Positions 20,659 through 51,135 of a stretch of DNA of 64,000 nt are shown here, one piece after another. Under the pieces are notes generated by a model. That model was not told the origin of the DNA. It saw only the letters and a list, made by a program, of their open reading frames with translations, and did not search any database. Location: positions 1-64,000 of the forward strand of contig WRAQ01000010.1 in the NCBI GenBank assembly GCA_009780115.1. The letters are read 5' to 3'. Position numbers and translations under genes: made by a program. Positions within the stretch are counted from its first letter, which is position 1. Each line of letters starts with the position of its first letter. The DNA comes from Lachnospiraceae bacterium. Lineage in GTDB: Bacteria; Bacillota; Clostridia; Lachnospirales; Lachnospiraceae.

Positions 20659-20679
20659 ATTATGATTTGCAGCACTAGT

Positions 20680-20781
20680 CAGGCAAAAAACTCTCCGCCT
20701 CTACGGCCTAATTGAATGTAAGATACAAGTTTCAGCTCGGGAAGAAGGCGGCCTAAGGTGGCTGCGAGTTGTTTTTGCCTG
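20680..20781 (-). repeat. Structured intergenic repeat B, copy B1 (reverse orientation)
   Basis: Terminal inverted repeats CAGGCAAAAA and TTTTTGCCTG bound a 102-bp element. Read on the minus strand it carries the family core ACTCGCAG, CCTTAGGCCGCCTTCTTCCC and TTAGGCCGTAG. The inner pair is GCC with GGC where copy B5 has GTTGC with GCAAC. It lies just before the lon start. Confidence 0.75.
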
Positions 20782-20799
20782 CCCTGTGAAGGAATACCA

Positions 20800-23229
20800 A
20801 TGTTTAACAAAATAAAAGAACAAATGATGCCGGCGGTTGCCCTTAAAGGGATAACTGTCCTGCCCGGGACTATCATTCACTTTGATATCAACCGGCCTAA
20901 ATCCGTGCTGGCAATCGAAAAGGCTATGACCTTAGAACAGCGCATTTTTCTTGTTGTCCAAAAAGATGACGAATCAGCATACCCCGGATTTGCGATGTTG
21001 AATAATATCGGGACAATTGCGATTATCAGGCAGGTAACGAAATTGCCGGGTAAAGTAATTAGGATTTTGGTCGAAGGGATTAACCGTGCCTTTCTTATGG
21101 CGGTTGATGAAGGGAACCCGGACTATCTTTCTGCTGAAATTCAAAAAATTGAAGATATAAAAGATATTGATGAAATAACTGAAGAAGCGATGCTGCGCCA
21201 TACCCGTGAACTATTGGAACAGTACGGTTCTTTTACCCCCCGTTTCGGCGGGGGCAATACCATTGACCGCTATAATCATATCAACCGGCTTGGCGAATAT
21301 ATTGACCGCACCGGAATGAATATACCGATTGGCAATGAAAACAAACAAAAGCTTCTCGAAGCAATTCGCATAAGAGAGCGTTATGAAATATTTTCCGATA
21401 TTTTGATTAATGAGATTGAAGTCCTGCAAGTTAAGGGTGAGCTTGCGACAAAAATCAAAGCTAAAGTTGATAAAAATCAACGTGATTATCTATTGCGTGA
21501 GCAAATGCACGTCATTCGTGAAGAACTTGGTGACAATGATTCATTCTCTGAAGCGGACCAGTTTACTAAAGCGATGGAAGAACTTGATGCTGACCAGGAA
21601 GTAAAGGACAAGCTGAAAAAAGAAATCAAGCGCTTCAAAAGCCTTAACGCTTCAAGCTCGGAAAGCGCGGTTGAACGGGCTTATATCGAAACAATTTTGG
21701 AGCTGCCATGGAATAAAGTTTCGCTTGACAGTATTGATTTGGCTAATGCCGAAGAAGTTTTGAACCGCGACCATTATGGCCTAAAACAAGTTAAAGAGCG
21801 GATTTTGGAATTTCTGGCCGTCCGGCTCCTTTCGGCTCAAAGCGGCAATGCTGAAAGTCCGGTTATCTGCCTGGTTGGCCCCCCCGGGACCGGCAAAACT
21901 TCAATTGCAAGAAGTATCGCGGAAGCCCTTGGCCGCAAATATGTCCGGATTTCTCTTGGTGGTGTCCGTGATGAGGCGGAAATCCGCGGCCACCGTAAGA
22001 CCTATGTCGGGGCAATGCCCGGCCGGATTGCGGCCGGCCTTAAGCAAGCCGGTGTTGCGAATCCCCTGCTGCTGCTCGATGAAATAGACAAAGTCAGCAA
22101 TGATTATAAGGGTGATACTTTTTCGGCTCTTTTAGAAGTGCTTGACAGTGAGCAAAATATCCGTTTCCGTGACCATTATATTGAGATTCCCATCAACCTT
22201 GCCCCGGTGATGTTTATTTGCACCGCCAATACCACCACAACTATTCCCCGGCCGCTTCTTGACCGGATGGAAATCATCGAAGTAAATAGCTATACCGCAA
22301 ATGAAAAATATCATATCGCCAAAGAACATTTACTTAAAAAGCAGTTTGCCAAAAATGGAATAACACCTGTTATGTTATCGATTGAGGATGAAGCGCTTAA
22401 GAAAATCATCTCGGGTTATACTAAAGAAGCGGGCGTTCGTGAGTTGGAGCGGAAAATCCGCCAGATTTGCCGGAAAGCTGCCCGCGAAATTATGGCACGC
22501 CAGCAGGAAAACAAGCGACTGCAAAGCAGTCATTTGTGTTCACCTGACGTGACAGCGATAGAGCAAAGCTCTAAAGATAAGTGTAGCGAATCACATCACA
22601 ATTGCATAATTATATCTTGTGAAAAACTTGAAGAATATCTAAAAAAACCAAAGTATACCCAGGAAAAAGCCCGCGACCTAAATGAAGTTGGGGTGGTAAG
22701 GGGCCTTGCCTGGACTAGTGTCGGCGGTGATACCTTGGAAATTGAGGTCAACGTTATGCCCGGTAAAGGCGAAGTTGACTTAACCGGTCAGATGGGTGAT
22801 ATCATGAAAGAATCAGCCCGGGCGGCCTTAAGTTATGTCCGTTCAGTTTCCGGGCGTTACAAACTGTCTGATGAATTATTTCAAAAGCATGACTTCCATA
22901 TTCATATTCCGGAAGGGGCAGTCCCCAAAGACGGCCCTTCGGCCGGCATCACTATGGCTTGCGCTCTGCTTTCGGCGGTCACCTTGATCCCGGTCCGGTC
23001 TGATGTAGCAATGACCGGTGAAGTCACTCTAAGAGGCCGTGTCCTGCCAATTGGCGGGCTTAAGGAAAAACTTTTGGCCGCGAAGATGGCCGATATATTG
23101 ACTGTGCTGGTACCATTAGAAAATAAAAAAGACATCCGCGAAATCGACGACGAGATTAAAGAAGGTTTAGATATCAAATATGTTGAAGCGATGGAAGAGG
23201 TGTTAAAATATGCGCTGGCAGAAGTATGA
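20800..23229 (+). CDS. lon: ATP-dependent protease Lon
   Basis: An 809-residue cytosolic AAA+ protease. In order: N-terminal substrate-binding domain (ALKGITVLPG), coiled region, AAA+ module with Walker A GPPGTGKT and LLLDEIDK, and a C-terminal Ser-Lys protease domain with Ser in KDGPSAGIT and Lys in LPIGGLKEKLLAA. The start chosen is the ATG at 20800 with AAGGA upstream; a GTG at 20758 is in frame but lies in repeat B1. Residues of about 570-604 are a Ser/Cys/His-rich insert encoded by three small DNA hairpins, absent from typical Lon. The TGA stop lies in repeat A2. Confidence 0.96.
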   Translation: MFNKIKEQMMPAVALKGITVLPGTIIHFDINRPKSVLAIEKAMTLEQRIFLVVQKDDESAYPGFAMLNNIGTIAIIRQVTKLPGKVIRILVEGINRAFLMAVDEGNPDYLSAEIQKIEDIKDIDEITEEAMLRHTRELLEQYGSFTPRFGGGNTIDRYNHINRLGEYIDRTGMNIPIGNENKQKLLEAIRIRERYEIFSDILINEIEVLQVKGELATKIKAKVDKNQRDYLLREQMHVIREELGDNDSFSEADQFTKAMEELDADQEVKDKLKKEIKRFKSLNASSSESAVERAYIETILELPWNKVSLDSIDLANAEEVLNRDHYGLKQVKERILEFLAVRLLSAQSGNAESPVICLVGPPGTGKTSIARSIAEALGRKYVRISLGGVRDEAEIRGHRKTYVGAMPGRIAAGLKQAGVANPLLLLDEIDKVSNDYKGDTFSALLEVLDSEQNIRFRDHYIEIPINLAPVMFICTANTTTTIPRPLLDRMEIIEVNSYTANEKYHIAKEHLLKKQFAKNGITPVMLSIEDEALKKIISGYTKEAGVRELERKIRQICRKAAREIMARQQENKRLQSSHLCSPDVTAIEQSSKDKCSESHHNCIIISCEKLEEYLKKPKYTQEKARDLNEVGVVRGLAWTSVGGDTLEIEVNVMPGKGEVDLTGQMGDIMKESARAALSYVRSVSGRYKLSDELFQKHDFHIHIPEGAVPKDGPSAGITMACALLSAVTLIPVRSDVAMTGEVTLRGRVLPIGGLKEKLLAAKMADILTVLVPLENKKDIREIDDEIKEGLDIKYVEAMEEVLKYALAEV
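22517..22601 (+). repeat. In-frame palindromic insert within lon
   Basis: Three hairpins are packed in 85 bp: GACTGC-AAA-GCAGTC (22517-22531), TCAC-CTGAC-GTGA (22540-22552) and TAGAGC-AAA-GCTCTA (22559-22573), enclosed by TTGTG (22534) and CACAA (22597). It encodes a Ser/His/Cys-rich stretch between the AAA+ and protease domains of Lon. The length keeps the frame open. Confidence 0.5.
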
Positions 23230-23960: not shown

Positions 23961-24070
23961 AAGGAGGGCAAAAACATTTCGCAGCCGCCTTAGGTCGCCT
24001 TCTTCCCGAGAGAAAGAGTTCATTAGAACCAATTAGACCATAGCGGCGGAGAAAGTTTATTGTCCGACTT
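23961..24070 (+). repeat. Structured intergenic repeat B, copy B2
   Basis: The core reads CGCAGCCGCCTTAGGTCGCC on the left and TTAGACCATAGCGGCGG on the right. GCCGC pairs with GCGGC and GGTC with GACC, whereas copy B5 has GTTGC/GCAAC and GGCC/GGCC. Both arms have changed together. Confidence 0.7.
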
Positions 24071-24246
24071 GCTTATATACACTTTAGTAGTAGCAACGAA
24101 GAGTGTTTATTGACTGACTTGCTCATAAATATTTAGTAATAGCAATGAAGAAAGTTTATTGTCCGACTTGCTTATATACACTTTAGTAGTAGCAACGAAG
24201 AGTGTTTATTGACTGACTTGCTCATAGATATTTAGTAATAGCAACG
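24049..24246 (+). repeat. Tandem array of four about 49-bp units (two 99-bp dimers)
   Basis: Units begin GAAG-A-(A/G)GTTTATTG and end TAGCAA(C/T), at about 24049, 24099, 24148 and 24198. Units 1 and 3 are nearly identical, as are 2 and 4, so a dimer was duplicated recently. Each unit resembles the right end of repeat B. Confidence 0.8.
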
Positions 24247-32784: not shown

Positions 32785-32903
32785 AGTAAGGCGGATAAAG
32801 ATGTCTCGCAGTCACCTTAGGCCGCCTTCTTCCCGAAAAAATACTTTTATTTTACACCAGTTAGGCCGCAGAGACGGAGAGACATACTTTTTCTGACTTA
32901 CGT
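32785..32903 (+). repeat. Structured intergenic repeat B, copy B3
   Basis: The ends GTAAG and CTTAC pair. ATGTCTC pairs with GAGACAT where other copies have CATCTC with GAGAG. The core CCTTAGGCCGCCTTCTTCCC and TTAGGCCGCAG is conserved. It lies after the TPR gene. Confidence 0.7.
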
Positions 32904-35657: not shown

Positions 35658-35770
35658 TAAGGCAGATAAAAACATCTCGCAGTTGCCTTAGGCCGCCTTC
35701 TTCCCCAGAGAAAACTTATATTTTACACCTATTAGGCCGTAGCAACGAAGAGAGTTTATTATCTGCCTTA
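35658..35770 (+). repeat. Structured intergenic repeat B, copy B5 (best-preserved)
   Basis: Perfect 12-bp terminal inverted repeats TAAGGCAGATAA (35658-35669) and TTATCTGCCTTA (35759-35770) bound a 113-bp element. Inner pairs are CATCTC with GAGAG, GTTGC with GCAAC, and GGCC with GGCC. The loop carries the conserved CGCCTTCTTCCC. It lies between the PHP gene and the convergent parvulin gene and covers the region just past both stops. Confidence 0.8.
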
Positions 35771-35774
35771 CTTT

Positions 35775-45604: not shown

Positions 45605-45700
45605 AGTAAGACAGATAAAAACATCTCGCAGGAGCCTTAGGCCGCCTTCTATCCCTACGATGGGGAAGGAGTGGGGCCATGAGATTTTGTTGTAGAAAAG
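45605..45700 (+). repeat. Degenerate repeat B, copy B6
   Basis: The left part GACAGATAAAAACATCTCGCAG and the core CCTTAGGCCGCCTTCT are clear; the right half is altered (GGGGCCATGAGATTTTGTTGT). It is followed directly by copy B7. Confidence 0.55.
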
Positions 45701-45805
45701 AAAGGCAAAAATAACTCGCAGTTGCCTTAGGTCGCCTTCTTCCCGAGATAAAGTGTGCATTGGAGCCAATTAGACCGTAGCAACGGAGAGTATTTATTGC
45801 CTTAC
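45701..45805 (+). repeat. Structured intergenic repeat B, copy B7
   Basis: AAGGCAAAAATA at the left pairs with TATTTATTGCCTT at the right. The core is CCTTAGGTCGCCTTCTTCCC with TTAGACCGTAGCAAC; GGTC pairs with GACC and GTTGC with GCAAC. Confidence 0.75.
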
Positions 45806-50394: not shown

Positions 50395-51038
50395 AACCGG
50401 CAGAAACATTGACTATGAACAATAAAATAAAAACGCTTCTTTTGCATAGTTGCTGTGCCCCTTGCAGCAGTTACGTTTTGGAATATTTAGAAAATGATTT
50501 TTGTGTCACGGTCTTTTTTTATAACCCCAATATAACCAGCCGGCCGGAATATGAGCTTCGCCGTGATGAACAAAAACGGTTACCGGCATTACTATTTACA
50601 GAACCTCGCGGAACAGTGACTGTAGATAGTAACTGGTTTGCTCCTTTTTTCATCGAAGGCGATTATAAACCTGAAAGTTTTTATGATATAACCAAGGGTC
50701 TTGAAGCTTGCCCCGAAGGCGGAGAGCGGTGCTTTTGCTGCTTTGAGCTGCGGCTTAAAGAAACAGCACGAGTCGCATATGAGCGCGGGTTTGACTACTT
50801 TGCCACCACCCTCACCGTAAGCCCGCACAAGAACGCCGAAAAAATCAATGAAATCGGCAAGCAGGTTGCTGTTGAATACAACGGGCTATTATATTTACCC
50901 TCTGACTTCAAAAAGAAGGGCGGTTATCAGCGCTCTATCGAATTATCGAAAAAGTACGGCCTTTACCGGCAAAATTATTGTGGCTGCGAATTTTCCAGGT
51001 ATAGAAAGGAAGGCAAAAACATCTTGAAGTCACCTTAG
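50391..51038 (+). CDS. queH: Epoxyqueuosine reductase QueH
   Basis: A 215-residue enzyme reducing epoxyqueuosine to queuosine in tRNA. Cys motifs of the family are visible: HSCCAPCSSYVLEYL at the N-terminus, RCFCCFELRL in the middle, TLTVSPHKN, and YRQNYCGCEFS near the end, which hold the iron-sulphur cluster and disulphide. The start overlaps the preceding stop. The last about ten codons and the TAG stop are part of repeat element B8, so the C-terminus KEGKNILKSP is repeat-derived. Confidence 0.92.
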   Translation: MKPAETLTMNNKIKTLLLHSCCAPCSSYVLEYLENDFCVTVFFYNPNITSRPEYELRRDEQKRLPALLFTEPRGTVTVDSNWFAPFFIEGDYKPESFYDITKGLEACPEGGERCFCCFELRLKETARVAYERGFDYFATTLTVSPHKNAEKINEIGKQVAVEYNGLLYLPSDFKKKGGYQRSIELSKKYGLYRQNYCGCEFSRYRKEGKNILKSP

Positions 51039-51112
51039 GTCGCCTTCTTCCCGAGATAATATGTAAATTAGAACCAATTAGACCGTAGCAACGAAGAGTA
51101 TTTATTGCCTGA
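51010..51112 (+). repeat. Structured intergenic repeat B, copy B8
   Basis: AGGCAAAAAC at the left and TTTATTGCCT at the right pair; the core CCTTAGGTCGCCTTCTTCCC is conserved, and TTAGACCGTAGCAAC matches with GGTC/GACC. The left third encodes the end of QueH. Confidence 0.75.
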
Positions 51113-51135
51113 CTTACTAATATTAAGGAGCATAC

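Follow-up and report, generated by a model that had tools for sequence, protein, structure and literature searches.

In-frame copy of a dispersed, structured and probably mobile palindromic element in the lon gene of a Lachnospiraceae bacterium

The window (the whole 64,000-nucleotide stretch of DNA that was analysed) contains a lon gene whose predicted product is approximately 30 residues longer at one place than the Lon of E. coli. The reading frame is open throughout and the insert contains no stop codon. Residues 567-602 stand in place of the 6-residue linker in the E. coli structure (6u5z), between the Pfam Lon_lid domain (residues 518-570) and the S16 protease domain Lon_C (residues 605-807). 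This agrees with an earlier, sequence-only reading of the locus, which proposed a palindromic element in frame in lon, at the boundary of the AAA+ and protease domains and where known Lon proteins have no such insert. The coordinates are collected in Table 1.

Table 1. Features of the lon gene and positions of a further dispersed repeat in the window
Feature	Position	Strand	Basis and remarks
lon gene (809 aa), carrying the insert	20800-23229, stop included	+	Pfam LON_substr_bdg, AAA, Lon_lid, Lon_C; best PDB match E. coli Lon 6u5z
Dispersed palindromic element: divergent copy of nearly full length, sharing the lon frame	22489-22593	+	Local alignment to consensus
P1 5' arm (GGCACGCCAG)	22494-22503	+	Window row of alignment A5 and structure; partner 22544-22553, 8/10 pairs kept
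Domain I core: P2 (GGAAAACAAG / CATTTGTGTTC), capped by P3 (CTGC-AAA-GCAG)	22506-22541	+	Folding and alignment structure
P1 3' arm (CTGACGTGAC)	22544-22553	+	Alignment A5 and structure
Domain II hairpin (TAGAGC-AAA-GCTCTA)	22559-22573	+	Consensus equivalent CAGACT-GTA-AGTCTG
lon codons 567-602, extra in comparison to E. coli Lon; residues 582-599 predicted disordered	22498-22605	+	Comparison with 6u5z; AlphaFold2
Third dispersed repeat	20677-20783, 23961-24069, 32788-32881, 35661-35773, 45698-45805, 51006-51123	both orientations	

The insert was found to match the consensus of a dispersed element with a local score of 120 (shuffled sequence: 21 +/- 4), and the covariance model R1 matches lon at 22487-22563 with 57.7 bits. 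The earlier observation (22511-22611) was confirmed, with the element beginning about 20 bases before 22511, as the consensus alignment covers 22489-22593. From the three hairpins described at the time, the two with AAA loops (22507-22541 and 22559-22573) were recovered, while the third is weak and lies outside the conserved structure. The larger hairpin has its tip (CTGC-AAA-GCAG) at 22519-22529 and its arms at 22507-22522 and 22526-22541. RNA folding of 22500-22615 yields z = -2.3 against shuffles, which is modest by itself; it is the existence of dispersed copies, and not this z-score, that places the lon hairpins beyond chance.

AlphaFold2, run with 29 Lon sequences, gave a mean pLDDT of 83, with residues 582-599 below 50. 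The proposed structural check thus shows the insert as a low-confidence stretch between well-folded domains, and in the model these residues probably form a disordered loop after an extended helix. When four same-genus Lon genes were compared, the linkers of G001, G002 and G003 proved to be short and different, so that the insert is not a family-wide trait of Lon. The Lon of G005, a sister species, has a long linker at the same place, and its likeness to the element does not exceed that of shuffled sequence; it was therefore rejected as a decayed copy. The same protein (L076, G005:C11) contains a further extra stretch, HQNAESSMPLGVLGAVEKLPLCQPAHPTES, at residues ~340-370 just upstream of the Walker A motif, for which no DNA match was found among the other loci examined.

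Related DNA is present elsewhere in the host genome (G000, an incomplete assembly, 96% complete), as the sequence-only reading had anticipated. A BLAST search with positions 22480-22640 of the window returned 35 places including lon, with E-values down to 6e-18; many of them are found where contigs end, and several form tandems with ~105-bp spacing. The covariance model detects 40 copies, the lon copy among them. The element is ~105-130 bp long, and the consensus of the most uniform subfamily starts with TGATATAATGACACATCAGCAGGAAAACAAGCGACTGCGAAGCAGGCATTTGTTTTCACCTGATGTGTC, followed by AACGACAGACTGTAAGTCTGGAGTTGT. An exact pattern of the core occurs in at least 110 stretches of species-representative genomes, nearly all of them Lachnospiraceae by record title. 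Among 98 relatives searched with the model, 11 have copies: G000 has 40, G005 has 9 and four other same-genus genomes have none. Candidatus Galacturonibacter soehngenii (L202, G103) has 35 copies in its genome, some of them in tandem runs of up to five, and the G106 genome holds 30. Copies thus occur both singly and in tandem. Such patchy copy numbers are typical of mobile DNA, and it is this distribution that points to mobility of the element. In viral contigs there was a single match, within an open frame, which was judged to be due to chance. No Rfam family matched the 32 sources with copies at the curated gathering score, and relaxed thresholds gave nothing credible. Within the open-licence papers covered, the element is apparently a Lachnospiraceae family that has not been described before.

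Other repeats occur in the same genome. A second palindromic family, starting with TGATATAATGTCGCTAAGACATTATATCAGCGCAGTTTTAGTGCGCATCC, is found at 28 places (e.g. G000:C23:16032-16120, L016, L019, L023, L080); it often adjoins the element studied here and is also bounded by TGATATAATG. The third repeat of Table 1 (~105 bp, 72-83% alike) occupies at least six places in the window and further loci in the genome, and one of its copies lies just upstream of lon. Two 96-bp tandem copies, 99% alike, lie at 24050-24145 and 24149-24244 between an engB-like GTPase gene and the next gene.

The element folds into two domains. Domain I is a long hairpin of which the outer stem P1 and the apical stem P3 vary by compensatory change, and the core (AAGCG...CATTT) is near-invariant among the copies. 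Since the automatic alignment A2 puts P1 out of register, this stem was assessed by arm swapping and in a same-register subset. In the 23 copies of that subset, 93.1% of cells pair and both sides have changed in 16 of 24 pairs. The covariation score is 0.390, compared to 0.156 for shuffled alignments (none of 500 shuffles reaches the observed value) and 0.04-0.09 for slid controls. When P1 arms were swapped among 78 copies from other genomes, the duplexes became weaker, with an average energy of -7.2 kcal/mol in place of -14.3 kcal/mol; the p-value (8e-32) is only indicative because the copies are related. In the host genus, domain II is a single hairpin with GA/GA flanks; many other Lachnospiraceae have a three-way junction (ACGAG...CGAGT) in its place. 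In several G005 copies (L085, L086, L087, L088, L089) a small palindrome (AACGACTGCAAGCAGTCG and similar) is nested in the apical loop, and some of these copies have a second nested palindrome in the outer stem.

Neighbouring genes were assigned with a simple ORF rule. In G000, each copy for which a downstream gene was visible (22 loci) points the same way as that gene, and the same is true of 53 of the 64 copies in other Lachnospiraceae. Most copies are in sense and either follow directly on an extended -10 promoter box (TGATATAAT) or lie at a stop codon. For co-oriented upstream genes, the distance from stop codon to core peaks at 12-13 nt (10/42). Gene ends that we read as groEL-like (ATGATGTAA) are an example. 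A shortened copy, L090 (G005:C14:46016-46044), was seen directly upstream of a putative tmRNA gene. On the strand opposite some copies (L107, L201, L204) there are long ORFs, which look spurious.

The sequence TGATATAA is matched at 7-8 of 8 positions on the 5' side of 49 of 109 copies, compared to ~5 expected, and it mostly lies 20-21 nt before the core. Element-free relatives contain a sequence like this motif at the corresponding sites of polA, folP and the ackA promoter. In polA, relatives without the element read TTTATGATATGATAGAA, with the target-like sequence TATGATATGATA, where L195 has TTTATGATATAATAACCGC and then the element. In folP, G000 reads AATCATGATTTAACT without an element and G005 reads AATCATGATTTACTGTACCAG followed by one; the target-like sequence of element-free relatives is ATCATGATTTA. 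At the ackA promoter, G002 has TGATATAATGACG without the element and G000 has TGATATAATGACGCATCAG followed by it, a comparison limited to the promoter part because the upstream gene differs between the two genomes. These comparisons of sequence suggest that the motif 5' of the element is its target. The possibility that TGATATAAT is simply the element's own end was rejected, as element-free relatives show TGATATAAT, or a closely similar sequence, in that place. In the G000 arrays it is multiplied together with the element, and it is also an extended -10 box; TGATATAATR occurs 114 times in the genome, compared to 32 times for the reversed control. Recent or intergenic G000 copies have TGATATAATG at both ends. 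The polA site of L195 has the motif at its 5' side only and no visible target duplication.

Four copies lie in frame within genes: in lon of the window, in folP of G005, in polA of L195 and in the C-terminal part of a putative DNA methylase gene (L160), so named from our reading of its sequence. In the folP product of G005, residues ~145-196, which include a partial second copy, replace 4 residues of 6pz2. In the polA product of L195, the element accounts for residues ~398-434, a gap in relatives. All four copies are in sense, in frame and free of stops, which fits their translation. Apart from the methylase copy, the inspection of 60 further loci added none that is both in sense and in frame.

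Several other explanations were weighed. That the lon insert is an ordinary, fast-diverging linker with chance hairpins would suit the varying linker lengths among relatives and the unrelated long linker of G005 at the same place. This explanation deserves practically no credit, however: it is refuted by the DNA match to dispersed copies, given that BLAST matches it elsewhere in the genome with E-values as low as 6e-18 and that the consensus score lies far above shuffles. The insert might instead be removed or skipped at the RNA or protein level, by intron-like removal or translational bypass, leaving a normal mature Lon. Strong hairpins do occur at the lon site, and bypassed hairpin inserts exist in some mitochondrial genes. 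Skipping would, however, require neither the kept frame nor the lack of stops seen in the four genic copies, and we regard it as very unlikely.

More weight, although still little, is given to two further explanations. The element could be a cis-acting RNA with a host function, a protein-binding or stabilising leader or intercistronic element kept by selection, with the genic copies as strays; its orientation and its positions at transcript starts and stop codons would then result from this function. Such a function would be in line with the shared orientation (all 22 loci in G000, 53/64 elsewhere), the stems kept through compensatory change and the near-invariant core, which has mismatches and a GA/GA internal loop like a protein-binding RNA. 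Against it stand the very diverse downstream genes (for the same reason a riboswitch-like regulon was rejected), the lack of a model match in four same-genus genomes and of any match in Rfam, and the copies within lon, folP, polA and the methylase gene, which have no obvious leader role; moreover, an oriented target accounts for the orientation without a function. Overall, this explanation seems improbable. A similarly low probability is assigned to a homology-driven spread: tandem arrays would release circles or fragments, and these would recombine where short TGATATAA homologies occur, with no dedicated transposase involved. The ~105-bp tandem arrays, the TGATATAATG sequences at both ends of recent G000 copies and the lack of a detected Y1 transposase speak for this route, whereas the polA copy has the motif 5' only and 8-10 bp of homology is very short for recombination.

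We consider it likely that what has entered lon, in frame, is a copy of a mobile palindromic element of the Lachnospiraceae that is non-autonomous, structured and target-preferring, similar to the Rickettsia palindromic elements (RPE). According to this proposal, the element would insert in a single orientation, immediately 3' of a sequence resembling TGATATAA. Since the motif is oriented, insertion on its 3' side would account for copies being in sense as well as for their location at promoters and gene ends; most copies would lie at transcript starts or stop codons because TGATATAAT boxes and ATGATGTAA ends fit the target. Occasionally a target would be hit inside a gene, and the copy would survive if the frame is kept, no stop is introduced and the position is a tolerated linker or loop, adding ~30-50 residues. 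Lon would be such a case: its copy would have arrived by insertion 3' of the motif, and we infer that the extra residues are translated and tolerated. Movement would proceed by transposition, presumably driven in trans by some enzyme. Some observations count against a mobile element with this target. No strain pair showed a fresh insertion, and no mobilising enzyme turned up. The outer stem P1 is too variable among copies for a simple recent burst, and only ~2% of the copies inspected lie in frame in genes. The target of the lon copy itself, GAAATTATG (GAAATCCTG and the like in relatives), resembles TGATATAA poorly.

A more specific version is proposed only tentatively. The element may home to promoters and act as RNA or single-stranded DNA, inserting after extended -10 boxes and becoming a structured 5' leader. 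Its two-domain fold would then be kept for recognition by the mobilising machinery and perhaps by the host, and the genic copies would be by-products of the target rule.

Rickettsia provides the best-known examples of palindromic mobile DNA inserted in frame. The copies described here are located in housekeeping enzymes (DNA polymerase I, dihydropteroate synthase and Lon) of a family that forms a large group of gut bacteria, and in some species dozens of host transcripts would begin with a structured leader supplied by the element. Because of these housekeeping copies, the motif-bearing element-free relatives and a structure that can be modelled, the choice of sites by such elements and the turning of selfish DNA into protein segments become testable.

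The RPE are hairpin repeats that occur between genes and in frame within genes (Ogata et al. 2000, 2002; PMC10969869, PMC1950309). The resemblance noted in the sequence-only reading proved apt as an analogy. As with the RPE, a family of hairpin repeats of ~100-150 bp, with many copies per genome, is found between genes and in frame in several unrelated genes (lon, folP, polA and the methylase gene), with an open, stop-free frame through the element. In Lon, the one protein modelled, the insert falls between domains in a stretch predicted to be largely disordered, and its position may be a tolerated one. The Lachnospiraceae element differs by its host phylum, its two-domain fold with covarying stems and a near-invariant core, and its preferred oriented upstream motif TGATATAA. 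In addition, nearly half of the RPE copies of R. conorii lie in genes (PMC10969869), compared to ~2% of the inspected copies here. The likeness follows the description of the RPE, and common descent is not claimed.

REP sequences and REPINs, associated with RAYT transposases and also known from within genes (PMC3733652), are likewise dispersed and often grouped palindromes, mostly intergenic with some in genes, and patchy among related species. However, they measure 20-40 bp, in comparison to ~105-130 bp here, and the GTAG or CGTC tag at their hairpin feet is absent from the Lachnospiraceae element: near the feet of 107 copies, GTAG or its complement was found in 2 and CGTC or its complement in 25, with no fixed place by eye. 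A RAYT domain (Y1_Tnp, PF01797) was not matched in G000 (96% complete), G005 or G043 and is present in G013 and G040; having no match in the host, a RAYT/Y1 transposase was rejected as the mobiliser. MITEs and BOX-type repeats (PMC10969869) are similarly short, non-autonomous, repeated, sometimes tandem or nested, and near genes. Unlike MITEs, the element forms one asymmetric two-domain structure without terminal inverted repeats, and its stems vary by compensation; target duplication was not seen at the polA site, and the G000 intergenic copies have TGATATAATG on both sides. Structured RNAs of Rfam (riboswitches and leaders) share the covarying stems, the near-invariant core and the sense orientation at transcript starts, but the element matches none of them, its downstream genes have no common function and some of its copies lie within coding sequences. 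Kinship to RPE or REP is not claimed; in comparison to the known palindromic elements, the occurrence in this group of hosts, the use of an oriented target and the covarying stems of a two-domain fold would be new.
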